Positions 8,021 to 38,004 of a stretch of DNA of 64,000 nucleotides are shown piece by piece (within the stretch, counting starts at the first letter, position 1; each line of letters opens with the position of its first letter). The translations under genes and the position numbers were made by a program. The notes beneath the pieces are model-generated. The model did not search any database, had not been told where the DNA came from, and worked only from the letters and a program-made list of their open reading frames with translations. Source of the stretch: Methanosarcina mazei S-6 (GTDB lineage: Archaea > Halobacteriota > Methanosarcinia > Methanosarcinales > Methanosarcinaceae); NCBI RefSeq assembly GCF_000970205.1, contig NZ_CP009512.1, positions 1,612,001 through 1,676,000 of the forward strand. The letters run 5' to 3'.

Positions 8021-8228
8021 TCAATACCAGATTTCAAAACCCGTCCACAGATTTAAAAACAAAAGTTTAATAGAAAGAAAAGCATATTTTGAGATGTTTC
8101 CAAACCACTAAAAAACCCTTTTTTTCTTGTATTTATAAAGGGTTTGATAATTTTCCAGCAAGAATTTTAGCCCCGAAAAAGGGGATATTTCCCGCCTTTT
8201 CTGGCCATATAACGGAAATTTTTGCCCT
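8021..8228 (+). promoter_or_regulatory. CRISPR leader (also 3' flank of the GNAT gene)
   Basis: AT-rich 208 bp between the acetyltransferase stop and the first repeat. It has a 9-bp inverted repeat AAACCCTTT / AAAGGGTTT (8113-8121, 8137-8145), whose T-run may also end the upstream gene, and a CCCC / GGGG hairpin at 8171-8184. The leader is placed here because the conserved repeat end ATTGAAAC (the crRNA 5' handle) fixes transcription as rightward and the degenerate repeat is at the far end. Confidence 0.7.
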
Positions 8229-11200
8229 ATTCGTGAGCAAGATCCACTAAAACAAGGATTGAAACATCTCCACTCCCTAGTTCCAATCTTCCCCCCCGTC
8301 GTATTCGTGAGCAAGATCCACTAAAACAAGGATTGAAACTTTCTTTTGCAAGTGGTCCTTTGTTTAAGATCGCTGATTCGTGAGCAAGATCCACTAAAAC
8401 AAGGATTGAAACTAGGGAATGTCTATGAAAATCCTGAACTTATTGAGATTCGTGAGCAAGATCCACTAAAACAAGGATTGAAACATTACCATTTTTATTT
8501 AATTAGCTATAAGTACTAATTCGTGAGCAAGATCCACTAAAACAAGGATTGAAACTAATGGGCGTTTACTGGGTAATAGAGTCCATAATATTCGTGAGCA
8601 AGATCCACTAAAACAAGGATTGAAACACATAAACATAATCACCTAATTTTACTTGTGGGGTATTCGTGAGCAAGATCCACTAAAACAAGGATTGAAACTA
8701 GATGTTGTCGGGGGAGACATCTATAGCAATATTCGTGAGCAAGATCCACTAAAACAAGGATTGAAACACTTGCAGTGCAACACAGTATCAGACAACACCA
8801 TATTCGTGAGCAAGATCCACTAAAACAAGGATTGAAACAGGGTTTCATGCTGTTTTCCGTTCATTCAACCTCTGATTCGTGAGCAAGATCCACTAAAACA
8901 AGGATTGAAACCGGACATTGACAGAATCATATCAAAGGGCAATTTTGATTCGTGAGCAAGATCCACTAAAACAAGGATTGAAACCGAGGTTTCCGGCGGC
9001 TGCGCTTGGGCGTTGTTGGATTCGTGAGCAAGATCCACTAAAACAAGGATTGAAACTACCAAATTAAAAACGTTGTCATTTTTGCGTTGTCTATTCGTGA
9101 GCAAGATCCACTAAAACAAGGATTGAAACCTGCTTGTAAGATGAGTTCGTTTACCATTGTTTTATTCGTGAGCAAGATCCACTAAAACAAGGATTGAAAC
9201 AAAATTCCTGCACTCGCGGGTTGACGGGCTGTATCATTCGTGAGCAAGATCCACTAAAACAAGGATTGAAACTGATACGTCTCTGAATACTCTCTCGCGA
9301 ATTCGTATTCGTGAGCAAGATCCACTAAAACAAGGATTGAAACCCGAACAGCATTTCGCCTATTTTCCGGGCTTCTTCGATTCGTGAGCAAGATCCACTA
9401 AAACAAGGATTGAAACTGAATTCAGCAATGGCTTCATGGGTTTCCCGAAGGGATTCGTGAGCAAGATCCACTAAAACAAGGATTGAAACCGCAAACCGTA
9501 ACCATGTGGTTACGCTGATGCTGTTATTCGTGAGCAAGATCCACTAAAACAAGGATTGAAACCTGATTTCGGTTTTCAATTCTTTTTCCCCTTCTTATTC
9601 GTGAGCAAGATCCACTAAAACAAGGATTGAAACTGAGATAAGCCTCATTCAGGAACGGGTTAAGCTGGATTCGTGAGCAAGATCCACTAAAACAAGGATT
9701 GAAACAGGGCCTTTGCGATCTCGCTATACTGGCTTATATTAAATTCGTGAGCAAGATCCACTAAAACAAGGATTGAAACTCTCCTCTTGCATTTCTGTCT
9801 CCTATTTTTTGGCAATTCGTGAGCAAGATCCACTAAAACAAGGATTGAAACTGCAATGTCGGGGACCAATCCAGGTCAGCCTCGGTATTCGTGAGCAAGA
9901 TCCACTAAAACAAGGATTGAAACAGGTGTTTCGATGGCTCTGTGTTCGATTGCTGACGATTCGTGAGCAAGATCCACTAAAACAAGGATTGAAACCAACA
10001 ATAGAATCGTGCGCCCTGGCCACGAGGGGGATTCGTGAGCAAGATCCACTAAAACAAGGATTGAAACCATTATTCCAGGTGAATGTCATATTTCCATTTG
10101 TAATTCGTGAGCAAGATCCACTAAAACAAGGATTGAAACCTCATTGTTCCCACGCTCCTGTTTTGGCGTTATATATTCGTGAGCAAGATCCACTAAAACA
10201 AGGATTGAAACCATTCCATTTGTTTCCATCCATATCTGTTAATGTATTCGTGAGCAAGATCCACTAAAACAAGGATTGAAACAAAACCTTAAAGACTTAG
10301 TAGAAAAGTCAAAAATATTCGTGAGCAAGATCCACTAAAACAAGGATTGAAACTTAGCTTGCCATATGCTCTGGCTATTTTTCTTTCCTCATTCGTGAGC
10401 AAGATCCACTAAAACAAGGATTGAAACCTGCGTAAGGCTCTCTAAGATACAAGCATATTCCATTCGTGAGCAAGATCCACTAAAACAAGGATTGAAACCC
10501 TGATGTTAGTCTTAAAGTTCGGAGCCACCAACAATTCGTGAGCAAGATCCACTAAAACAAGGATTGAAACTCTTGTATCCTATTTCAGTAGCAATTGCCT
10601 TATAGATTCGTGAGCAAGATCCACTAAAACAAGGATTGAAACAGCTTAAGCTCAGGCGAAGAGCAAATGGTAAGAATGATTCGTGAGCAAGATCCACTAA
10701 AACAAGGATTGAAACTGGAGATGGGAACCGGAAAGACAAGGACAGCAATCGAATTCGTGAGCAAGATCCACTAAAACAAGGATTGAAACTTACGTGATAG
10801 ATGGGAATCAAACAACCGAGATCAATTCGTGAGCAAGATCCACTAAAACAAGGATTGAAACAGAGGATTCAACATTTGATTGATCGTGCTAAATTTATTC
10901 GTGAGCAAGATCCACTAAAACAAGGATTGAAACCCCATGAATGTCCTCTTAATTGACGTAGATTCGACTATTCGTGAGCAAGATCCACTAAAACAAGGAT
11001 TGAAACTAAATGTGGTCAGATGAAACACATAGCAGGAGTGGATTCGTGAGCAAGATCCACTAAAACAAGGATTGAAACTGATTAATTCCCTGCCCTATTC
11101 TAACACCTTCTTTATTCGTGAGCAAGATCCACTAAAACAAGGATTGAAACTTTCCAAGACGGAGATATCTGGAGAGTTGATAATGATTCGTGAGCAAGAT

Positions 11201-13484
11201 CCACTAAAACAAGGATTGAAACGTATTTATGGGCGTTGCTTGCTCCGGTTTTGTACGATTCGTGAGCAAGATCCACTAAAACAAGGATTGAAACTGGAGA
11301 GAAACGACATCATGACAATAGATCATGAAATTCGTGAGCAAGATCCACTAAAACAAGGATTGAAACTCAAACAGTGATTGTACTCTCAGAACCCTTTCAA
11401 GATTCGTGAGCAAGATCCACTAAAACAAGGATTGAAACGTGATATTGTTTTTGGCATTGTTTTACCTTCACTTATTCGTGAGCAAGATCCACTAAAACAA
11501 GGATTGAAACTGGTTTTAATCCTATTTGCAACAATTGAAGAATCTATTCGTGAGCAAGATCCACTAAAACAAGGATTGAAACATATCGGCTCGATCTTAT
11601 AAAATTTATTTTCAAATTCGTGAGCAAGATCCACTAAAACAAGGATTGAAACTTAATTCGCTTGCCCCTTCAGAAATCTTAAACTGAATTCGTGAGCAAG
11701 ATCCACTAAAACAAGGATTGAAACAAGGTTCTAATAACCGAAACAAAGCTAGGCAACGTATTCGTGAGCAAGATCCACTAAAACAAGGATTGAAACCAGC
11801 TTCAATGCCTATGACTCATGAAGAAGCTGAGAAATTCGTGAGCAAGATCCACTAAAACAAGGATTGAAACTGTTAGGTTGTCCTATTCGACTCCGTACGC
11901 AGCCAAATTCGTGAGCAAGATCCACTAAAACAAGGATTGAAACAAAGAGGGATCGAATGAAAATAGCCGGGGTAAAGTATTCGTGAGCAAGATCCACTAA
12001 AACAAGGATTGAAACGATATACCTTATAGTGTATACGTTAAAGGTACACCGTATTCGTGAGCAAGATCCACTAAAACAAGGATTGAAACTAAAGCTTCGC
12101 TTAATTTTCCGGACAACCTTCGAAAAATTCGTGAGCAAGATCCACTAAAACAAGGATTGAAACTCCGGTTCGCCTGGTCGAACGCGTCGAGCGTCCTATT
12201 CGTGAGCAAGATCCACTAAAACAAGGATTGAAACAGCGCTAGACCACGCACATATAGTATATCCTTAAAGTATTCGTGAGCAAGATCCACTAAAACAAGG
12301 ATTGAAACAGGATATACTATAAACGACGTACTTTAAGGATATACTAATTCGTGAGCAAGATCCACTAAAACAAGGATTGAAACACTGACTGTTTTCGCGA
12401 TTGAATACATATACTTACGAAATTCGTGAGCAAGATCCACTAAAACAAGGATTGAAACACTCTAAAAGAACTCGGTTTGATCACGCTGAATCTAATTCGT
12501 GAGCAAGATCCACTAAAACAAGGATTGAAACGCATTGAAAGCACAATGGGAATCTAAAGCACAAATCAATTCGTGAGCAAGATCCACTAAAACAAGGATT
12601 GAAACCGATCCTTATATCTCCTGCGTCTGTTGCTGTCATGTATTCGTGAGCAAGATCCACTAAAACAAGGATTGAAACTTATCCCTGGAAGATGTAAATC
12701 TATTCAGGAGAGTAGAATTCGTGAGCAAGATCCACTAAAACAAGGATTGAAACTCGCCCGGCTCCTCCTCCTGCCGCTGTAGTATAAATTCGTGAGCAAG
12801 ATCCACTAAAACAAGGATTGAAACGATACTGGCGTTATACAGTTTTGAAGTTCGAAAATACCATTCGTGAGCAAGATCCACTAAAACAAGGATTGAAACT
12901 CTGATATAATGAAAAATGCCTTCGAAGATGCAAATATATTCGTGAGCAAGATCCACTAAAACAAGGATTGAAACTTCGCCTCCCTTACTCGACCAATGAC
13001 ACATAAAGCATTCGTGAGCAAGATCCACTAAAACAAGGATTGAAACTTGAGAATCCACTGTCAAGATCCTGGCTTTTAGACAAATTCGTGAGCAAGATCC
13101 ACTAAAACAAGGATTGAAACTGAACATATTTTCTTGCCTCTTCTGTTGAATATCCATTCGTGAGCAAGATCCACTAAAACAAGGATTGAAACTTGTACCT
13201 GTAATTAATGGAATTGGTACATAGCCTTATTCGTGAGCAAGATCCACTAAAACAAGGATTGAAACTAGACACGACAGCAGGAAATGTTTATATTTCTAAA
13301 GCATTCGTGAGCAAGATCCACTAAAACAAGGATTGAAACAACTCATTCCTTCTTGATGTCTGAAGCCAGCCTTCCCATTCGTGAGCAAGATCCACTAAAA
13401 CAAGGATTGAAACTGATCGAGATAAAGATAACTGATGAAATGCGAGAAAATTCGTGAGCAAGATCCACTAAAACAAGGATTGAA
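8229..13484 (+). CRISPR. CRISPR array, 73 repeats and 72 spacers
   Basis: The 37-bp repeat begins ATTCGTGAGCAAGATCC and ends ACAAGGATTGAAAC. I counted 72 full copies starting at 8229 with no variant noticed by eye, plus a final copy at 13450-13484 that is intact to ...GGATTGAA and then runs into other sequence. Spacers are 32-38 nt. Orientation is left to right from the 3' ATTGAAAC handle, toward the cas genes on the same strand. The repeat is of the Methanosarcina type; as I recall, M. mazei Go1 has both a I-B and a III-C system with nearly identical repeats. Spacers 56 and 57 overlap in sequence, and several translate as open protein-like frames. Confidence 0.99.
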
Positions 13485-14153
13485 GATAAACTGATACTTT
13501 CCCTTGTCCAGGACTGGCTCAAGAAAGGCTCACAGGCAAGCGGTTCCGGGAAAAATTCTGGAAAAGGGCTGCTTCAGGGTGGGATAATCTCTCCGCTTCT
13601 TGTAAACTTCTACCTGGACCAGTTCGATAACCACTGGGCTGAAATCGGGCTCAAGAATGTTGAAGGGGAATCAATTGAGCACCTTGTCCGTTTTGCAGAT
13701 GATTTCGTGGTCCTTTCAAAGGAATGGATCAACCCTGAGAGAGTTAAGGAAGCTATGGCTGAACTTGGACTTGAATTAAACAAAGATAAGACCTATGTCG
13801 GGACTGCCGTAAATGGGTTTGAATTCGTGGGTTTTTACTTTGAGGAAATTGAAGAGGAAAACGGGGCTGGGAGCATTATAAGAGTTATGCCTACCGAAGG
13901 GTCTATTGAGAAGGTAGTCGAGAGTATTGAAAGTATTGGAAGTAATGGAGATGTATATAATATAAATAGCATAGAAAGTCAAGGAAAACACGTAGTTAGC
14001 GATAAAAACAAGGTTCAGGCGCTGGATGATGTAATAAAAAATATTTATGATGTCGTTAATCCCTGGGTGAGCTATTACAGGCATATGGATTATGCTGCCG
14101 GGCTTGAAAGAATTGAACAATGTTTTAATGAAAAAATTAAAGAATGTATTTAA
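13485..14153 (+). pseudogene. Reverse transcriptase, N-terminally truncated, fused to the last CRISPR repeat
   Basis: An open frame runs from the broken end of the last repeat to a stop at 14153 (about 222 residues; first internal ATG 13707). It contains the RT hallmarks GKGLLQGGIISPLLVNFYL and the catalytic FADDFVVL box, then a thumb-like region ending NPWVSYYRHMDY. The fingers and the first catalytic Asp are missing because the gene is cut where the repeat begins. There is no Cas1 or HNH domain after it. Methanosarcina carry both group II intron RTs and CRISPR-associated RTs; position suggests the latter but the fragment alone does not decide. No start or ribosome binding site is seen for the fragment. 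Confidence 0.8.
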
Positions 14154-14275
14154 ATATATATCCGGTTTATATTTATTTAGAAAACTTATTCGATTAATAT
14201 GATAAGCTATTTATCTTATAACAAAAAACAATAAAATTTAAAAAATGTATTTGTAAAAAATTCTTTATAGATTTT

Positions 14276-14989
14276 ATGAGTCCAGGGAATATTAAGCTCA
14301 AAACCCTTGAAATGACCTTTGAAGGCTCAGGGGAATTCAGGGGAGATGCAAATCAGATCCGTGGTTTCTTTGCGTCAAAATTCAATGAATACGACCTCCT
14401 CCATAACCACAATACCGACAGGTTTTGTTACCGCTACCCTCTTGTGCAGTACAAAGTTCTTGACAGGATTCCTCTCGTGGTCGGTGTAAATGAAGGCGCA
14501 GAAATCTTGAAAGGTTTATTTGATAAATTTGATACCGTCACCCTTCCTCACGAGGATTTTGAGATCACAGAACGCTCTTTGAGGATCAAAAAACAGGAAT
14601 TCGGCCTTACAAAAAGCATCTACTTTTACGAATTTCTCACCCCCTGGCTTGCACTTAATAAAGAAAATGAGGAAAAATTCCTTGAGGCCAGAAACCCCGA
14701 CGAGCAAAAGGAAATGCTAAGAAAGACTCTGGCAGGAAATTTGCTTTCCATGTCAAAAACTCTTGGGTATACGGTTCCTGATACCATAAAGTGCGATGTT
14801 GATGTGGAACTCAGGCGTTCAAAATACAAAAATATGGATTTTACTTCTTTTACGGGCGGTTTTATAGCCAATTTTTTGATCCCGGATTTCATGGGGGTAG
14901 GAAAGGGGGTTGCGAAGGGGTTTGGGACTGTGAGGAAAATAACAACAAATGAAGATAATAGGAATTATTCTAACTTCAATGATATTTAG
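14276..14989 (+). CDS. cas6: CRISPR RNA endoribonuclease Cas6
   Basis: 237 residues. It should cut the precursor transcript within each repeat to leave the 8-nt ATTGAAAC handle. Support: position between array and effector genes, family length, and the C-terminal glycine-rich loop FMGVGKGVAKGFGTVRKI typical of Cas6. A region with DRFCYRYPLVQYKVL resembles the first RAMP-like fold of Cas6b-type enzymes. No Shine-Dalgarno is obvious before ATG 14276, so the mRNA may be near-leaderless. The gap to cmr1 is 37 nt, so it may be the operon's first gene. Subfamily (Cas6b) is inferred from the Methanosarcina context. Confidence 0.88.
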   Translation: MSPGNIKLKTLEMTFEGSGEFRGDANQIRGFFASKFNEYDLLHNHNTDRFCYRYPLVQYKVLDRIPLVVGVNEGAEILKGLFDKFDTVTLPHEDFEITERSLRIKKQEFGLTKSIYFYEFLTPWLALNKENEEKFLEARNPDEQKEMLRKTLAGNLLSMSKTLGYTVPDTIKCDVDVELRRSKYKNMDFTSFTGGFIANFLIPDFMGVGKGVAKGFGTVRKITTNEDNRNYSNFNDI

Positions 14990-15026
14990 CATTTGTATTA
15001 TTTGATCCTAAATAGAGGAATTACTT

Positions 15027-16127
15027 ATGATGGAACCTGAACCCATTGTAATTGAAACTCTTACTCCAATATGGACAGGTGGAGTAAACGGGAATTCGGA
15101 TACAGTCAGAGAAACAGGCGTTATCGGTAGCATGCGTTGGTGGTATGAGGCAATAATAAGAGGAATAGGAGAATACGCTTGTGATCCATTAAGTGATAGT
15201 AAATGTATGCTTGATGGGAAGGAAAAAGCAGATGAAAGAAACAAAAAACTGTGCCCAGCATGTTATCTTTTTGGATGTGGGGGATGGAAAAGAAGATTTC
15301 GACTAGAAATAGTGAACTGTAGTGTGAAAGAATCTTTTCATTTAGTTACACTTGATAGAAAAGGGATTGGAAATAACTGGTGGCTATCAACAATATTCGA
15401 AAAAAATCTTAATAATAGCCTTTCTTTTGGAACATTTACTTTTAAAATATATCCAGTTGGCAGAGACGACAAATCAGAAATAATCACACAGATAAAAGCA
15501 TTACTTTCCATAATGTCCCATGTTGGTGCTATTGGTGCCAAAAGTCAATATGGTTTTGGTCAGTTTGAAATGGAAAATAGGATGGATTTTAAACGAGCCA
15601 TAAACGAGATAAAAAATTTCTCTAACAAAGATGAGTTCAAAAAAGAAGTAAACAAACCAGACTGCTACTCTTTATCAAATTTTTGGTGTTACGAGTTTAA
15701 AATTCCTGCAAGAAACCAGTTAGTCCAAAATTTTCAGAAATCGAACAACGTTGGAAATAAATCTTCGTCCACAAGTTATCTGCCTGTATCTTTCGATATC
15801 AGGTACAAACTTCCAAATCGCAATAAAGGTTCAGGATTGAGACAGGCGTATTATTCTCATTGTAACGGAGATAAAAACCAAGTTTATAAAATATTTGGTA
15901 CGCTTCCTAAGAACGAGAAAAAGGAAAATGGAATTGGAAGTCGAATTTTTGTAAGTCATTTATTTAGAAAAACTTCAGAAAGTAATTATTTCTTACACGT
16001 TTGGGGTTTTACTGAAAAAGATGTGGGTGACCTTGTGAGTAGGGAGATTCAAAAAATGTTTTCTCTTGATGAAGTTCCAAAAATGAAATATGAAGAGGAA
16101 ATCAATAATTTTTCAGGGGGTGCCTAA
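15027..16127 (+). CDS. cmr1: Type III CRISPR RAMP protein Cmr1
   Basis: 366 residues. The N-terminus IETLTPIWTGGVNGNSDTVRETGVIGSMRWWYEAIIRGIG is split by family-typical signatures: LTPIWTGG and then the G-x-x-GSMRWWYE segment that marks Cmr1. Cysteines at KLCPACYLFGC may bind metal. A Gly-rich loop, GAIGAKSQYGFGQF, lies near residue 180. Cmr1 caps the effector complex and contacts the 3' part of the target RNA. The start follows GAGGA, and the ORF ends directly against the next gene (stop 16127, ATG 16128), showing translational coupling. Confidence 0.92.
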   Translation: MMEPEPIVIETLTPIWTGGVNGNSDTVRETGVIGSMRWWYEAIIRGIGEYACDPLSDSKCMLDGKEKADERNKKLCPACYLFGCGGWKRRFRLEIVNCSVKESFHLVTLDRKGIGNNWWLSTIFEKNLNNSLSFGTFTFKIYPVGRDDKSEIITQIKALLSIMSHVGAIGAKSQYGFGQFEMENRMDFKRAINEIKNFSNKDEFKKEVNKPDCYSLSNFWCYEFKIPARNQLVQNFQKSNNVGNKSSSTSYLPVSFDIRYKLPNRNKGSGLRQAYYSHCNGDKNQVYKIFGTLPKNEKKENGIGSRIFVSHLFRKTSESNYFLHVWGFTEKDVGDLVSREIQKMFSLDEVPKMKYEEEINNFSGGA

Positions 16128-17420
16128 ATGAACATTGATTGGGGTTCGGTTCTTTATCAACAGGAAGAAGCCTCCATAAATGATCTCAAAATAATTGTTG
16201 AGGAACTCGATCAGGCAGAAAAGGAAGAAACAGAAGAATTAGAAAAAAAGTTAGAGACCAAACTTAAGGATCTAATTTTGCCTAATGAACATCTAGCTTA
16301 TCATTACATGTCTACCATTAATCAAAAACTGTCAGATAATTTCCGAGAAGCATGGCAGAAACAGAACCTGGAAGTTAATTTAGAAGAAGTTATCGAAAAA
16401 TGGGAACTTACAAAATATGTTAAAGACAATTTCATATGTCCAGAGGTAAATATTTCTACATTACCCAGCTACTCTTTTGTTCTCAAATTTATGTTCAAAC
16501 TTAAAAAGCCCTATATATCTCTTGATGAAAATGATTTTTACATTATTGATAATCCTTTGAGGAAAGATAAAGTTTTAAACCTTCCATTTGTCGCACCTTC
16601 TTCTTGGAAAGGAAGTCTCAGGAACTCTCTCTGGCAACTTAATTATGATTATGAAAACGATAAGATAAGACGTATTTTCGGAAACGAGAGATCTCCAAAC
16701 TCCGAAGATATAGTTCTAAGGATGGGAAGACTGTATTTTTTCCCTACATTTTTTTCCAAAAAATCATTGGAAATAATTAATCCTCATAACCGAGAGAGTA
16801 GAGTTGGTACAGTGCCGATTCTAATGGAAAGCGTTCCGCAAGATACAACGGGATATTTCACTCTTATCTATGTTCCTTTTGACTTGATTGGATGTGAGGA
16901 AAACGAGATAAAAAAACAGGTTGCATGCGATATACAATTGATTTCAAAGGGATTAAAATCGATGTTTACTTATTATGGATTCGGAGCCAAAACATCAAGT
17001 GGATACGGGACATCATACGAAGATATTACAGATGGTACGATCACTTTAAGGGTTAAAGGAATAGAAGTTTCTCTAAAAGATATAGATGAAGTAAAACCTC
17101 CTGCTGAAGGCTATAGTAAATATCTTAACGAAGATGGCAGTGTCAAGGAAGAGTTTAAAGGATCTGGAAAATATGGACTTCTAAGTGATAAAGAATATTA
17201 CAAAATAAAAAACCAGCTCGAAGGAAGTAGAAATGAGTATAGAGATTTCAGACAATGGTATGGGTTAAATGGAGAAAAGTGGCAAAAACACTTAAACTCT
17301 TTTAAATATCCAAAACCTGAATGGCCAACTTGGAACTTCGGAAATTTCTTCCAGTTAATCGAGGTCTCCAAAAATATTGCTACCTCTTTAGAACTTTCGG
17401 GGGCTCACAATGAGTGCTGA
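16128..17420 (+). CDS. Type III CRISPR RAMP protein, Cmr6-like
   Basis: 430 residues. An N-terminal acidic, helical segment of about 130 residues (EELDQAEKEETEELEKKLE) precedes a RAMP domain: PFVAPSSWKGSLRNSLW, IRRIFGNERS, then glycine-rich GFGAKTSSGYGT near residue 290. In Cmr operons the remaining Cas7-type RAMP subunit is Cmr6, so I infer that role; the long N-terminal extension is unusual for Cmr6 and is seen here directly. Its 3' end overlaps cas10 by 11 nt. It could instead be a lineage-specific Cas7. It acts as a backbone or cap subunit of the RNA-targeting complex. Confidence 0.75.
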   Translation: MNIDWGSVLYQQEEASINDLKIIVEELDQAEKEETEELEKKLETKLKDLILPNEHLAYHYMSTINQKLSDNFREAWQKQNLEVNLEEVIEKWELTKYVKDNFICPEVNISTLPSYSFVLKFMFKLKKPYISLDENDFYIIDNPLRKDKVLNLPFVAPSSWKGSLRNSLWQLNYDYENDKIRRIFGNERSPNSEDIVLRMGRLYFFPTFFSKKSLEIINPHNRESRVGTVPILMESVPQDTTGYFTLIYVPFDLIGCEENEIKKQVACDIQLISKGLKSMFTYYGFGAKTSSGYGTSYEDITDGTITLRVKGIEVSLKDIDEVKPPAEGYSKYLNEDGSVKEEFKGSGKYGLLSDKEYYKIKNQLEGSRNEYRDFRQWYGLNGEKWQKHLNSFKYPKPEWPTWNFGNFFQLIEVSKNIATSLELSGAHNEC

Positions 17421-20172
17421 TCTAAAAGTTCTTGCTGACAATAAAGCCAACCTACTCTTAGCAGAGGTTGCTGCTTGGTTGCATGATATGGGAAAATGCA
17501 GTGATAAATTTGTAATAAGTAGTTCTTGTGACAAACCATCAGGTTTCGAGTATAAATCAAAAGAAGATTATTTGTCAAACTTTAATGAAAATAATAACGA
17601 GATTAAATCTATTTTTGAAAACACATTTGTTGATTTTTCTAAAGTTAATTTCATCAATGAGAAAGTTACCCTAAATGATCTTATTGTAAAAGGTCTTCCG
17701 AGGACAAATAAAGAGAAAGAAAAAGATAAATTTCCTTGGTTGGTAAGAACATTAGGGCGTTGTCATGGTGCAGCACATATTGAAAAAGAGGATTCTAAAG
17801 AATTTAAACAATATAAAAATTATACAATGATCAGCAATCCATTTGGATTTGAAAAAGGAATGGAAGGACTTTCCTCAAAATTAATAACTATTCCGTATAA
17901 CAAAATAAATGACCGATCTTTTTTTGTCAAGTCAGTAGTTGAATCTTTTAACTACGCATTAGGTGATACTAGAAGACCAACAAATGAAGTTACACTTACT
18001 GATTGGTCAGGTATTGTTGCTGCGTTATATAAATCTGCTTTAGCTAGTGCATTGCTCCTAAAGATAAAAACAGATCCAACTGAACTGAAGTGGAGATTTT
18101 TATCAATCAGGTTTAATTCAGAACAGATATGGGGAAACGCTCAAAATATACCAATATTAGCAACAAGAAAAAAAATGCTAACGGAGGGATTGGACCGAGT
18201 AAAACTTCTTCTTGAAGAAACTTACCCATTAGGAAACGAAATATATCGAGATGAAGACAACAGTATATTCGTTGTACCTGATATCTCCTATTTACTGGAC
18301 AAAACATCTGAAAAAAATGAACCGCTAAAACAATTAATAGCAAATGAATTTGGATTTGAAGGTGAGGTCGTTATCACTCCTGAAATTGGTAATGAATGGT
18401 GGGCACAAAAACCAGATCGAGAAAATGAGATGCAAAACGATGAAATCCCTCCTATAGCAAAAATCCTTTCTAATCAAAGACTTTACTCTCCAGCAGATCC
18501 CAAAGATGTTGCAAAATTTTGGGAAGGAACTTCAAATAGAGGAATTTGTACCATCTCTTGGTTACGTCCTCAAGGACCCACTTCAAAGGGATTTAACAGA
18601 AAAGCTTCAGATTGCTGGGTCGAGAGAGTAACTTGGAGAGCGAATGAGTGGTATCATAGTCTTGATAGTACTATATGGATTGATGAGGTTGCTGATTCAA
18701 ACGACAGAATCTGCTTATTAACCGGCAGATTCGATCTTTTAGAATGGCTAAAACCAGATGGGTATATTTCTACCATAAAGATAAGATCTGAACCAAATGG
18801 CAAAGTTATTACAAAAACTCCATCTTTTGCTCGTATGAACAGGATTTGGAGAACAACCAAAAAATTCTGGGAAGATGTAGAGAATGAGCTAGGAGTAAAA
18901 ATAGGTCAGATTGACAATAGGTTGAAGATTATTGGAAAATTTCAACCTGAGAATAACAGTTCCCTTAAAATGGGTCATTCTTATAAAGCTATGTTAGATA
19001 GAATCGGTTTCAGTATTTTTTATGGAAAAGAGGATGAATTTCTAGTAATCGAGAACCACAAAGAACTAGCAAATAAATTTGGTTTTGATTCAGAAAAATA
19101 TGTTGATAAAAATCCTACTAGGCAACTTAAAGAATATTTATCCACTAAAAAAGTTAAAATTTACGATTCAGAGGGAAAAAACCGATCAAATCCCATTGGC
19201 ACCTTAGAAATATTAGAAATGAAAGAAGAGGATACTCCTTACGTTCCTTTAATTCCTATACTAACTGAACCGAGCATATTCATGGCTATAATTCCAGCAG
19301 AAAAAGCTCTTGACGTATCCAGACTAATAAAAATAAAATATGAAACGGAAATGGGGAAAGTAAGGAATCGTTTACCTTTAAGCCTTGGGATGGTATTTGC
19401 TAAGTCTCACACTCCTTTAGCAGCTTTAATGGATGCAGGTCGGAAGATGCTGCGAAAATCAAACAAAGAAAAGTCAGCTAAAGAGGATAAATGGATACTG
19501 GAAGAAAATCCAATTAAAAACTATAATTCATTCACTCTTAAATTTAACAATGGGATAAAATGGAAAATCCCTTCAATAATGGGAGATGAAAAAACTCTCG
19601 ATATTTGGTATCCCTATTTTTATGTTGATGGAGAGCTCCGTAATCGTTCTGACTCCTTTATACATTCCTTTAAAAATCCTGAAAATTCAGATAGATGGTT
19701 AGTTCATGTTAGTGAATTAAAAGAAGGAGATATAGTAGGGATTTTGCCTTCGAAATTCGATTTCGAATTTTTGGATTCAGCTTCTCGCAGATTTGAGATC
19801 TGTTATGATGAGAAAGGGAATCGTAGGGGCAGTCTAAAAGCTCTAAGACCTTATCTTCTTGAAGAACTTGATAATTTCACTGATTTATGGAATATATGCT
19901 CCAAGAACTTATCAAATACTCAGATAAGAAATATAATCACTCTTATTGAGAAAAAAAGAGAAGAATGGGACATCGGGGAAGATACAATTGTTTTTGAAAA
20001 TTTTGTTCATGATGTCCTCTATAATGCAAACTGGAACAATGGAAAAAGACCAGATGACGCAAAAATGACTGAACTGGAGGATGCGGCAAAGTCTGGTAAA
20101 TTAAGGGATATTTTAGAGTTAAATCTGAATATTTTAAAAAATAGAGCTGAGGAAGCTTCTGGAGGAATTTGA
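17410..20172 (+). CDS. cas10: Cas10 (Cmr2-type) with HD motif but no GGDD
   Basis: 920 residues. The N-terminal HD domain is intact in motif: AAWLHDMGK (H25, D26) and GRCHGAAH (H119, H123), so DNase activity is plausible. A first palm-like segment, ICLLTGRFDLLEWL, is near residue 440. In the second palm, where active Cas10 has GGDD, the aligned segment reads PILTEPSIFMAIIPAEKAL (about 615-633): no Gly-Gly-Asp-Asp is present, so cyclic-oligoadenylate synthesis is unlikely. This pairing with Cmr-type subunits is the hallmark of subtype III-C. No CARF/Csm6-type effector gene is found nearby. It abuts cmr4 (20172/20173). Confidence 0.92.
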   Translation: MSADLKVLADNKANLLLAEVAAWLHDMGKCSDKFVISSSCDKPSGFEYKSKEDYLSNFNENNNEIKSIFENTFVDFSKVNFINEKVTLNDLIVKGLPRTNKEKEKDKFPWLVRTLGRCHGAAHIEKEDSKEFKQYKNYTMISNPFGFEKGMEGLSSKLITIPYNKINDRSFFVKSVVESFNYALGDTRRPTNEVTLTDWSGIVAALYKSALASALLLKIKTDPTELKWRFLSIRFNSEQIWGNAQNIPILATRKKMLTEGLDRVKLLLEETYPLGNEIYRDEDNSIFVVPDISYLLDKTSEKNEPLKQLIANEFGFEGEVVITPEIGNEWWAQKPDRENEMQNDEIPPIAKILSNQRLYSPADPKDVAKFWEGTSNRGICTISWLRPQGPTSKGFNRKASDCWVERVTWRANEWYHSLDSTIWIDEVADSNDRICLLTGRFDLLEWLKPDGYISTIKIRSEPNGKVITKTPSFARMNRIWRTTKKFWEDVENELGVKIGQIDNRLKIIGKFQPENNSSLKMGHSYKAMLDRIGFSIFYGKEDEFLVIENHKELANKFGFDSEKYVDKNPTRQLKEYLSTKKVKIYDSEGKNRSNPIGTLEILEMKEEDTPYVPLIPILTEPSIFMAIIPAEKALDVSRLIKIKYETEMGKVRNRLPLSLGMVFAKSHTPLAALMDAGRKMLRKSNKEKSAKEDKWILEENPIKNYNSFTLKFNNGIKWKIPSIMGDEKTLDIWYPYFYVDGELRNRSDSFIHSFKNPENSDRWLVHVSELKEGDIVGILPSKFDFEFLDSASRRFEICYDEKGNRRGSLKALRPYLLEELDNFTDLWNICSKNLSNTQIRNIITLIEKKREEWDIGEDTIVFENFVHDVLYNANWNNGKRPDDAKMTELEDAAKSGKLRDILELNLNILKNRAEEASGGI

Positions 20173-21120
20173 ATGAGTGGATCACACAAACTTTATACTC
20201 AACAACGCTACCTATTCATGGCACTGGACCCCGTTCATATAGGTACTGGACAATCCCAGCTTGGAAGAGTTGATAATACGATAGTCAGAGAACCTGGAAC
20301 AAATATCCCAAAAATTCCAGGAACAAGTTTAATGGGAGCAGCACGTCACTATGCCTCTATGAAATATGGAAAATTAGAAGCAGCTGGTCAGCATAAAACA
20401 CTAAAGGGAAAAAATCATGAAAAATGTCCAATAATCTATACATTCGGCACATATACAGAAACAGAAGGGGGCCAGCAAGGTAAAATTAGCATAAGCGATG
20501 CACAAATCTTATTATTTCCAGTGAATTCTATTGCAGGTCCTTTGTGGGTTAGTACAAAAGAGATTCTTGAAACTGCAGGATTTTCTATACAAGATACTGT
20601 TGAGATTTTCGATGAAAATGTGTTTACTTCTATGAATTGGGAAAAAGACACTTTAAATCTTGGGTGGCTCTCACTGAAAGCAATTACTGGGTTAAATGTA
20701 GTTCCTCCTCATACTATTAAAGAAAAAGATGAATGGAATTCCATAGCAAGCAGACTTTCAATTGTATCTCCTAAATTATTTTCTCAAATCGTAAATAGTA
20801 ATCTTGAAGTTCGTACTTCGGTTGCCATAAAACCAGAAACTGGAACAGCTGAAGATAAAGCTTTGTTTACTTATGAAGCAATCCCTAGAACTACTTGGTT
20901 ATTTTTTGATGTAGTACAGGATGATTATAAAAATGAGTTCCCACCAACTGAAAAACAGTATAAAGATGGAGATAATGAAGGTGATTCACTTGGGGAAGTT
21001 TGGAACTCACCTATTGATGTTTTAAACGCGGGTTTTCATTTAATAGAGTATCTGGGTATTGGGGGAATGGTTACCAGAGGATTTGGAAGAATGAAAAAAA
21101 TGTATGCCTGGGAGGTTTGA
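20173..21120 (+). CDS. cmr4: Type III CRISPR RAMP protein Cmr4 (Cas7 backbone, target RNase)
   Basis: 315 residues. The start DPVHIGTGQSQLGRVDNTIVRE carries the Cmr4 G-x-GQ segment and the conserved Asp (D34 here) equivalent to the catalytic Asp that cleaves target RNA at 6-nt steps. KIPGTSLMGAARHYAS is the next hallmark, followed by ISDAQILLFPVNSIAGPLWVST and a final Gly-rich loop GIGGMVTRGFGRM. It is expected in several copies along the crRNA. RNA cleavage ability looks intact even though Cas10 signalling is lost. It lies contiguous with cas10 and is followed 2 nt later by cmr5. Confidence 0.94.
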   Translation: MSGSHKLYTQQRYLFMALDPVHIGTGQSQLGRVDNTIVREPGTNIPKIPGTSLMGAARHYASMKYGKLEAAGQHKTLKGKNHEKCPIIYTFGTYTETEGGQQGKISISDAQILLFPVNSIAGPLWVSTKEILETAGFSIQDTVEIFDENVFTSMNWEKDTLNLGWLSLKAITGLNVVPPHTIKEKDEWNSIASRLSIVSPKLFSQIVNSNLEVRTSVAIKPETGTAEDKALFTYEAIPRTTWLFFDVVQDDYKNEFPPTEKQYKDGDNEGDSLGEVWNSPIDVLNAGFHLIEYLGIGGMVTRGFGRMKKMYAWEV

Positions 21121-21122
21121 AA

Positions 21123-21521
21123 ATGAATCTTGATCTCGAGGCTGCACGATCCTCTCAGGCACTCATGAAAGATACGATTAATCAACAAAGCAATAGTGTA
21201 GAAAATCTCATCGCAAAGACTTTAGGTGTTTTGCAGGAAAATGGAGTTTATGCTTGTATGTTATTTCTTCATTCTCGCAATAGTTCTGAAAAAGAAATTG
21301 CTAAATGTATAAGGAATAGACTCTTAGAAACGACCAAATTTGTGGGAAAAAAATTGCCAGAAGGAGAGAACTCCATAGAGATCTTAAACGACTCCGAAAA
21401 AATCTTAGAATTCATCACAGATAATATTTGTAATGACATTGATACTCTTTTCTTAACCAAACAACTCTGGGAGCAGATATTAACTTATTCCCGATACGGA
21501 GCAAAAGCGAAGGAGGACTAA
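21123..21521 (+). CDS. cmr5: Type III CRISPR small subunit Cmr5 (Cas11)
   Basis: 132 residues from ATG 21123. This start is preferred over TTG 21117 because GGAGGT at 21111-21116 is 6 nt before it and would overlap a TTG start. The protein is all-helical and ends YSRYGAKAKED, with the Tyr-Gly-x-Lys/Ala feature seen in Cmr5. It lines the inner filament of the complex against the target RNA. Length and position between Cmr4 and the last RAMP gene agree with the family. One nucleotide separates it from the next ORF. Confidence 0.88.
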   Translation: MNLDLEAARSSQALMKDTINQQSNSVENLIAKTLGVLQENGVYACMLFLHSRNSSEKEIAKCIRNRLLETTKFVGKKLPEGENSIEILNDSEKILEFITDNICNDIDTLFLTKQLWEQILTYSRYGAKAKED

Positions 21522-21522
21522 A

Positions 21523-22344
21523 ATGGTATGGTCCTTATATCGTGTAAGTTTACGTCTTCTTTCTCCAGTTCATATCGGGTGGAAAAAAACAGATAACTTA
21601 CAACAAACACGGCCTTATGTTCCTGCCAAAACAATGTGGGGTGCATTAACGGCAAGAATAGCCAGGGACTATGGAAGTTTTGACTATGAAAATATTGGAA
21701 ATAAAGTAGCAGAAAATCTACGATTCAGTTATTTCTATCCTACAATAATAATTAATGAAAATGAAAGAGTCCCTACTAGAATTGATATTTTTCCTTGGGA
21801 AAATATTGATGACTTTTCCTGGAAGTATTTGAGTAGTTCCCAGAATACTGCTCTGAACCAAAAAACAGCAGAAGAGGGTTCCCTCCACGAGACCGAAAAT
21901 ATATCAAATAAGACCCGTAGCGGAGATCCCGTTTATCTTTTAGGTTACGTTTTCGAAAAAGAAGGGAGTAATTTAAAATGGCAAGAATCATTAAAAAAGA
22001 TTCAGATTGGGGGAGAACGTGGATATGGATGGGGAAAAGTTGAAATTTCAGATATATCCAATTTTCAAAAAGAATGTTTTAATGGGTACAATGTAAGTTT
22101 AACTAGCGAGCATCCAACTATAGATGTTACTATAGAAAATAAATATGTGTTAGCGCATGTCCTTACGAAAAATTTGAATCTAAATGGTTTGGTAGAACCA
22201 TTTGTTGGTAGAGAGACATCGAAAAATAAGTACTTTGGTGGAAAATATTCGAGTGCTGAGATTTGCTGGATGCCTGGAAGCACTGTGAAAGAAAACGAGA
22301 AATTTGAAATTTTACCTACAGGACTATGGAGAAGCATGAATTAA
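21523..22344 (+). CDS. Type III CRISPR RAMP protein, Cmr3/Cas5-like
   Basis: 273 residues. The N-terminal strand LRLLSPVHIGW, then RPYVPAKTMWGALTARIARDYG (split by its own P-x-K-x-MWGAL motif), is a RAMP ferredoxin-like fold; IQIGGERGYGWGKVEI is a Gly-rich loop near residue 170. Because every other Cmr subunit has a candidate, this is most likely the Cas5-group subunit (Cmr3 position) that holds the crRNA 5' handle, although it is shorter than Cmr3 and resembles Csx10/Cas5 forms. Last gene of the operon; no cas1, cas2 or accessory nuclease follows. Confidence 0.72.
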   Translation: MVWSLYRVSLRLLSPVHIGWKKTDNLQQTRPYVPAKTMWGALTARIARDYGSFDYENIGNKVAENLRFSYFYPTIIINENERVPTRIDIFPWENIDDFSWKYLSSSQNTALNQKTAEEGSLHETENISNKTRSGDPVYLLGYVFEKEGSNLKWQESLKKIQIGGERGYGWGKVEISDISNFQKECFNGYNVSLTSEHPTIDVTIENKYVLAHVLTKNLNLNGLVEPFVGRETSKNKYFGGKYSSAEICWMPGSTVKENEKFEILPTGLWRSMN

Positions 22345-23147
22345 AGCAAATAAAAGCCTGAAGAAACCTTTGGAAGATATGATGAAACTTCATTGTATAA
22401 TTAGGGACAACAAAGCATTTCGAGTCTTAATTTTATTGTAAATTATGGAAGTATATATTTTCGTGGAGATGGAAATCACGAACCCCACAAAATCTAGCTT
22501 TCACTTCAATACAGCAGAGCTATAATGAAAGTGACACAAAGACAAATTACGACAGTAGCTGTCTCACTCATTCTTTTCACCTCTGTATGTTTAGGGTTCT
22601 GCACACCATGGACCTAGAGCATTCCAGATCCACAGGTCAGAAAGAGACCCGTTGAGCTAAACCCAAAACATGACGAACGCTATTTTTATGGGATGTGTTC
22701 GAATCCAATCTCCAAGTATATTATATTCATTTTTGGTATAAGTATCTATTCTTAACTTCCAAAGTTTAATCTTAATGAGTTATCTAACAAATTTATCAAT
22801 GTAGGATGCCTTAAAACTAGTAGTGAGATTTCGAATTATGTTCAAAAAACTTAAGTTTAAGTATGTCCAATGGTCATGAACTCTCACTAAATTAAGGATC
22901 TTGATTTGGAATTTAAACACTAGTAACATAATATTTAAGTAAAATTTAAGATTTCAGTAACAGGCTAGTAAAAAGATAAAAGTTTATAACTTACTGCTCC
23001 TCATATACACCTTAGCTATTTGTCGACGGACAAATTTGGTTAACCAAAACAAAAACAGGTACATTCCCAATATTAGACAGTTAAGGTAAAAAATAAGCTG
23101 TTTGATGCTGATTTTCAGATTTGAAATTACTTAATAATTCGCTGAAA
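22345..23147. other. Gene-free stretch after the cas operon
   Basis: About 800 bp with stops in all frames. It has small hairpins TTCGTG / CACGAA (22460-22482) and ATTTGTC-gacg-GACAAAT (23018-23035). A 71-nt segment at 22594-22664 looks faintly tRNA-like on the minus strand but lacks a T-loop. No gene can be supported. Confidence 0.6.
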
Positions 23148-23165
23148 ATAAGGGAAAACGACCGT

Positions 23166-23276
23166 GTCGAGAGGTAGCTTCCACTAAAACAGGGATTGAA
23201 ATGCAGACGAAAAACGCAAATAAGAGTACAGACAAATTCATTCGATAACAAGATCCATTAAAACAAAGATTGTAAT
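23166..23276 (+). CRISPR. Relict two-repeat CRISPR unit, copy 1
   Basis: A 37-bp repeat of a second type (GTCGAGAGGTAGCTTCC...GGATTGAAAT, 23166-23202), a 37-bp spacer, and a decayed copy of the main repeat (ATTCGATAACAAGATCC...AGATTGTAAT, 23240-23276). Exact 37-37-37 spacing shows it was a real array. The flank ATAAGGGAAAACGACC (23148-23163) recurs before the second relict at 26307. Substitutions in the crRNA handle suggest it is dead. Confidence 0.75.
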
Positions 23277-26306: not shown

Positions 26307-26324
26307 ATAAGGGAAAACGACCCT

Positions 26325-26435
26325 GTCAAGAAGTAGCTTCCACTAAAACGAGAGTTGAAACTCTTCAGGTGGTCCCATGAAAATTATCAGTGACCTTTAT
26401 TTGTGAGCAAGATCCACTAAAACAGGGAATGAATA
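26325..26435 (+). CRISPR. Relict two-repeat CRISPR unit, copy 2
   Basis: Same architecture as 23166-23276: second-type repeat (GTCAAGAAGTAGCTTCC...GAGTTGAAAC, 26325-26361), 37-bp spacer, then a decayed main-type repeat (ATTTGTGAGCAAGATCC...GAATGAATA, 26399-26435). The same 16-bp flank ATAAGGGAAAACGACC stands before it at 26307-26322. The two spacers differ. Either both are remains of old arrays or one was copied from the other. Confidence 0.75.
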
Positions 26436-37417: not shown

Positions 37418-38004
37418 CGAAGCCAGCCCTATCTCTAAGGCTTCTTCTTCGTCAAGCGGTAGAATCCTTCATGCCCCCAGATTCTCTTTTGATTATGTAT
37501 GGATATGTGAGGATATTAGCTTTGTCATAAATGGATAAGAAAGGTGCTGAAGAATTCTACTTTTTCCTCTTTTAACATATAATGAAAATGCCTGACCCTG
37601 TGAAATACTGCCTGATATATTTTTCAATGACATAATAATCAGAATTTTTCATTACCAAAAGTTTTAAATAGAAATATACGGTAGTAAGATACCGGTTGCT
37701 TACGAGTAAATCAAAGCCTCATTTCACACACACACGAGAATCGAAACGATTACTCTAGAAGGATAGGTTTCATCCCTTCTTCCTGTCCGTTCCTGACGTT
37801 GACTCGTGAGCAACTAACTTCCTTCATTTTTTCTTCAAAACTTTCTCTGGACCTGAGACTTAATCACAATCTTCCTGTTCTGCTTTTTCTCGTAATCATC
37901 AATTCCCTGCAGATAGAGCCTCAATTCTGCAAAGCCAGATATTTTTTAAATTGGAAGCCAATATTAAAGGGATAAAAACAGGATTCTGGAATAGGGGGAG
38001 CTGT

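Follow-up and report, generated by a model that had tools for sequence, protein, structure and literature searches.

In Methanosarcina mazei S-6, a long CRISPR array runs directly into the C-terminal part of a reverse transcriptase (RT) gene. This joint is very probably the scar of a deletion that took out an RT adaptation module and left the array, here called array B, fused to the tail of the RT, as judged from the sequence and from gene order in related genomes. The window (the whole stretch of 64,000 nucleotides that was analysed) contains the following features of the locus.

8047–8228, + strand: leader B of the array, conserved 5′ of B-type arrays in G023, G005, G008 and other genomes (79–90% over ~180 nt)
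8229–13449, + strand: CRISPR array, 72 intact B-type repeats with their spacers (Rfam RF01320 matches; repeat consensus)
13450–13484, + strand: last (73rd) repeat, 35 of 37 nt kept (full span 13450–13486), abutting the RT gene (direct reading of the sequence)
13470–13484, + strand: 15-nt sequence common to the repeat and the RT gene, AAAACAAGGATTGAA (codons KTRIE), the probable crossover zone; matched perfectly by the G023 and G025 RT genes
13485–14153, + strand: C-terminal part of the RT gene (rest of the palm with FADD, thumb/maturase domain), predicted pseudogene (Pfam RVT_1 and GIIM; aligns to residues 155–377 of the G007 RT)
14276–14989, + strand: cas6b (Pfam Cas6b_N/C; PADLOC Cas6b)
15027–22344, + strand: type III-C effector genes cmr1, cmr6-like, cas10c (csx11), cmr4, cmr5 and cmr3 (NCBIfam, PADLOC)

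Structure of the array–RT joint

The array, delimited by Rfam matches and the repeat consensus, comprises 73 repeats at 8229–13486, of which 72 are identical 37-nt copies and the 73rd is partial; its final spacer is of normal length. RT sequence begins at 13485, directly after the last repeat and with no gap, and ends in a stop codon at 14151–14153. Pfam RVT_1 matches the fragment over profile positions 101–204 of 205 (E = 1.8e-12) and GIIM matches it just short of the cut-off (E = 9e-5); the fragment contains QGGIISPLL, FADD (13692–13703) and a maturase-type C terminus. The repeat reading, the RVT_1 match and the two motifs confirm the original prediction that the array runs directly into a truncated RT. 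The N-terminal part is indeed missing, as had also been stated: compared with the 377-aa RT of G007, about 154 residues are gone, comprising the fingers and the motif bearing GDIEDCFD (motif A), which in RTs carries a catalytic aspartate. With motif A gone, the fragment is predicted to be catalytically dead. The front of the RT was not found elsewhere in the M. mazei genome, where the best matches are intron RTs at 32–33%.

The last repeat had been described as perfect up to ATTGAA and as running in frame into the RT. The repeat is kept over 35 of its 37 nt, but the frame at the joint is automatic, since repeat and RT both encode KTRIE there. The repeat also carries an in-frame TGA, and the first later start codon is a GTG at 13707, just past FADD; hence no RT domain would be translated from the fragment in the usual way.

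ATTGAA had further been proposed as the microhomology of a deletion. A microhomology deletion is supported, with a longer shared stretch and with independent recurrences (below), whereas the 6-nt length is not: the shared stretch is up to 15 nt long. Against the RT genes of G003, G030, G007 and G011, AAAACAAGGATTGAA shows one to three mismatches. Because the RT of G007, the nearest intact one, matches the repeat imperfectly at the joint site (AAAACGAGAATCGAA), we can only infer exactly how long the shared sequence was in the ancestor of M. mazei. None of 300 mononucleotide shuffles produced a 15-nt match by chance, either for G023 or for G025; when codons were shuffled with the protein kept, it arose in 0.3% (G023) and 35% (the short G025 piece). 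At these codon-shuffle rates, the protein motif and codon use account for most of the match, and we regard the likeness of repeat and RT as a by-product of KTRIE and codon use that would be enough to guide recombination. Selection to keep a copy of the repeat in the RT gene was rejected, as G007, G011 and G024 differ at the site.

The fragment thus described reads as a pseudogene of a CRISPR-associated RT family. Its frame is open for 222 codons with neither stop nor frameshift, and the pairwise dN/dS of the M. mazei tail against G007 (0.23) is as low as that of the intact pair G003–G030 (0.24), which would suit a tail kept for a function, be it RNA binding in the manner of a maturase or service as a 5′ leader of cas6. 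We consider such a function improbable: the tail has no start codon until 13707, the RT tails of G009, G015 and G028 bear stops or frameshifts, and the polarised changes on the M. mazei branch (11 synonymous and 13 replacement, where the G007 branch has 17 and 11) are at most a hint of relaxation, slight or none being visible yet. The open frame can instead be explained by a young scar, and both dN/dS and branch counts appear to fit a scar of recent origin compared with the split from G007.

Family of the truncated RT

RT relatives were searched in 31 Methanosarcina genomes (close relatives being those with at least 65% identity or E below 1e-40). Close relatives of the fragment are present in about a dozen other Methanosarcina genomes, with intact, unbroken genes in G007, G011, G003, G030 and G024, and relatives also occur in five genomes outside Methanosarcina. 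The fragment is 80% identical to the intact RT of G007. A tree of 32 rows was built that included Methanosarcina intron RTs, bacterial intron RTs and three bacterial RT–Cas1 fusions (a plasmid search for RT–Cas1 relatives gave four usable fusions, three of which were placed). In this tree, the M. mazei fragment is sister to the G007 RT (support 100/99) and falls inside one well-supported group of CRISPR-neighbouring archaeal RTs, with those of Methanosarcinaceae and apart from Methanosarcina intron RTs (support 98–100).

Such RTs have been published as the RT-CRISPR-1 clade of Methanosarcinaceae (Toro 2017, PMC5541045) and as branch 11, a free-standing RT beside cas6 found mostly in Methanosarcina (Silas 2017, PMC5513706). 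Our group corresponds to these, matched by host, gene order and separateness from Cas1 and not by accession numbers. Like their members, the M. mazei RT comes from a free-standing gene beside cas6 and type III genes and lies near but outside the mobile intron RTs; the fragment adjoins the array (end 13484) and cas6b (14276), the neighbourhood characteristic of RT-CRISPR-1. Unlike them, it is truncated and fused to the array, and the complete RT domain (motifs 0–7) of RT-CRISPR-1 is not found, the residues before about 155 being absent. Bacterial type III RT–Cas1 fusions resemble it in tying an RT to CRISPR adaptation, but the M. mazei RT is not fused to Cas1 and is distant from them in the tree.

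The alternative offered in the original prediction was a chance deletion into a group II intron RT, which would make the fragment the remnant of a mobile intron to which the array became joined by accident. A group II intron RT/maturase model does match the RT (E = 8.9e-34, below the model's cut-off), and intron RTs are considered the source of the archaeal CRISPR-RT clade (PMC5541045, PMC5513706). Several observations nevertheless make this alternative very improbable. The fragment lies in the CRISPR clade and not among the Methanosarcina intron RTs; cas6 is the neighbour of the same RT in several species; and no group II intron RNA was detected at 13380–15100, even at E values up to 10, or at the loci of the intact relatives G007, G011, G003, G030 and G024. 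As a positive control, M. mazei's own intron RTs do carry Rfam intron RNA matches. Tree placement and missing intron RNA together led us to rule out a group II intron origin. The phylogeny proposed earlier as a check thus returned the CRISPR-associated clade and not an intron family with domains V/VI downstream.

Group II introns do occur within this RT family. In G008 (L049 9528–11356) the CRISPR RT gene is interrupted by one immediately behind its YADD codons. The RT gene of G023 (L047/L027 and L045) is broken in this region, where contigs end, and one of the contig ends contains part of an intron of that class.

Ancestral locus and recurrent loss

In G007, the closest relative, reading in the direction of the RT, array B is followed by a SEC-C gene, then by CARF, cas2 and cas1, these three encoded on the opposite strand, and next by leader A, array A, the RT, type III genes and cas6. 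Array B, cas genes, array A and RT stand in the same order in G011 and G023, and the same cas1–cas2–CARF block, divergent from the RT, is found in G110 and G184. In G030, array B is followed by two other genes, array A, the RT, cas6 and then III-C genes as in M. mazei (65–91%). The M. mazei window is devoid of a cognate cas1, cas2, array A and RT front, array B alone remaining of the two arrays, whose repeats have a common 3′ part (CCACTAAAACAAGGATTGAAAC).

The absence of cas1 and cas2 noted originally holds for the window, and no close cas1 was found in the M. mazei genome, where the Cas1 relatives are distant (28–32%). Close-kind Cas1 (66–100% identical) occurs in only 4 of the 31 genomes (G007, G011, G023 and G008), and in all four the RT is intact or broken by intron insertion alone; none was found in those of the 31 genomes that have a truncated RT. 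The presence of cas1 and cas2 with an RT, a trait of RNA-spacer modules, is therefore seen in intact relatives and not in M. mazei. Silas 2017 (PMC5513706) described no cas1 in the locus, whereas here a divergent cas1–cas2–CARF block lies within a few kb in G007, G011, G023, G008 and other genera.

We propose that the ancestral order was array B, cas2–cas1 and CARF on the opposite strand, array A, a free-standing RT and type III genes with cas6. An array-B repeat would then have recombined, or slipped, with the repeat-like KTRIE stretch of the RT gene, so that all intervening sequence was lost and array B became fused to what remained of the RT. The locus would have kept cas6 and the type III-C effector but lost its own adaptation genes, and the RT would have been left dead. 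A scar of a lost RT adaptation module, as originally suggested, is well supported by the CRISPR-clade placement, by intact homologues beside arrays, several with divergent cas1–cas2–CARF, and by the lack of the cognate cas1 in the M. mazei genome. The suggested comparison across Methanosarcina revealed both an intact RT beside arrays in sister species and the same type of joint in G028 and G009. Such a deletion would explain how the type III-C system of M. mazei comes to have a long array yet no adaptation genes of its own.

From the joint, read in one M. mazei strain, we infer a single-step deletion driven by the shared sequence. A reading that differs in the number of steps alone is that cas1–cas2 and array A were lost first and that a later, smaller deletion fused array B to the RT. 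This stepwise course has an appreciable chance of being correct, if clearly below even: G003 and G030 have an intact RT and array A with no cognate cas1, G003 keeping a 31-aa cas1 remnant alone, and G024 likewise has an intact RT without cognate cas1. In G007, however, cas1, cas2, array A and RT are still together, and the final joint would look alike under both courses.

Joints of the M. mazei type are seen in other genomes. In G028, array B is joined to the RT at the same codons as in M. mazei; in G009, a partial B repeat is joined to the RT ~20 codons later; and in G005, an array remnant with one spacer precedes an RT cut further in. G013 and G015, in which unrelated sequence precedes an RT broken at the same codons, were left out of the count of array joints. 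In a tree of RT tails, G000 (M. mazei) groups with the intact G007 RT and G028 with the intact RTs of G003 and G030. AU tests reject the forced groupings G000+G028 (p = 3.5e-5), G000+G009 (p = 1.9e-5) and all three (p = 2e-13). One ancestral fusion for M. mazei, G028 and G009 is rejected by these tests, which gene transfer could mislead; array-to-RT joints appear to have arisen at least three times independently, unless gene transfer confuses the tree.

With the RT and adaptation genes placed between two like-oriented arrays, and with the 3′ end of the repeat able to recur within the RT gene itself, the acquisition module may be lost repeatedly by repeat recombination, leaving an array and effector without local learning. 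We advance this generalization tentatively, its chances being only just short of even. The RT family was already known and the mechanism is an ordinary one, and recurrent repeat-driven loss seems unreported; the new elements are the greater length of the shared sequence, the repeated and independent origin of array-to-RT joints, and the cas1–cas2–CARF block near intact RTs. These findings are of interest to CRISPR specialists rather than startling: the joints form a set of cases small enough to count in which CRISPR repeats may have led to the loss of adjacent cas genes, and the intact relatives G007 and G011 are candidates for assaying an archaeal RT in the acquisition of RNA-derived spacers.

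Effector genes and downstream remnants

The genes behind the joint combine Cas10c (Csx11) with Cmr-type RAMP proteins, which identifies the system as type III-C. It shares a III-C effector and a long array with M. mazei Go1's type III-C system (cited in PMC9694453 and PMC7465815), and differs in its RT fragment, of which the passages searched in these papers make no mention. Judging by gene content, the array can probably still be processed and used as crRNAs with cas6b and the III-C effector. Among Methanosarcina species (L036–L051), the RT–cas6 border is kept and the type III effector set behind it varies, as if modules had been swapped.

Downstream of the III-C genes, two remnants of another mini-array (22969–23276 and 26307–26435) lie on either side of a SEC-C gene and a pRiA4b-like gene. 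They contain the array-A leader or its end (22969–23201 and 26307–26362), an A-type repeat, one spacer and a decayed B-type repeat. With remnants of the array-A leader beyond the effector genes, the locus has been rearranged more than once, and its history may have had several steps. We considered that these A-type leader and repeat remnants might be the reciprocal product of the deletion, but G011 has A-type repeats downstream of its effector genes although its RT is intact.

Only one other array-linked cas1 was found in the M. mazei genome, at 900541. The array next to it has a repeat unlike that of the window array (ATCGCAATCGGTTAGAAAACTCGTTAGAGATTGAAAC), and just beyond this neighbouring array come six scattered B-type repeats (L191 and L192, ~901.8–906.2 kb and 907–913.6 kb). 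The genome's two further Cas1 relatives (407 aa) probably belong to casposons. Finally, Rfam sRNA154 of Methanosarcina is found at 37693–37826, ~15 kb downstream of the effector genes.
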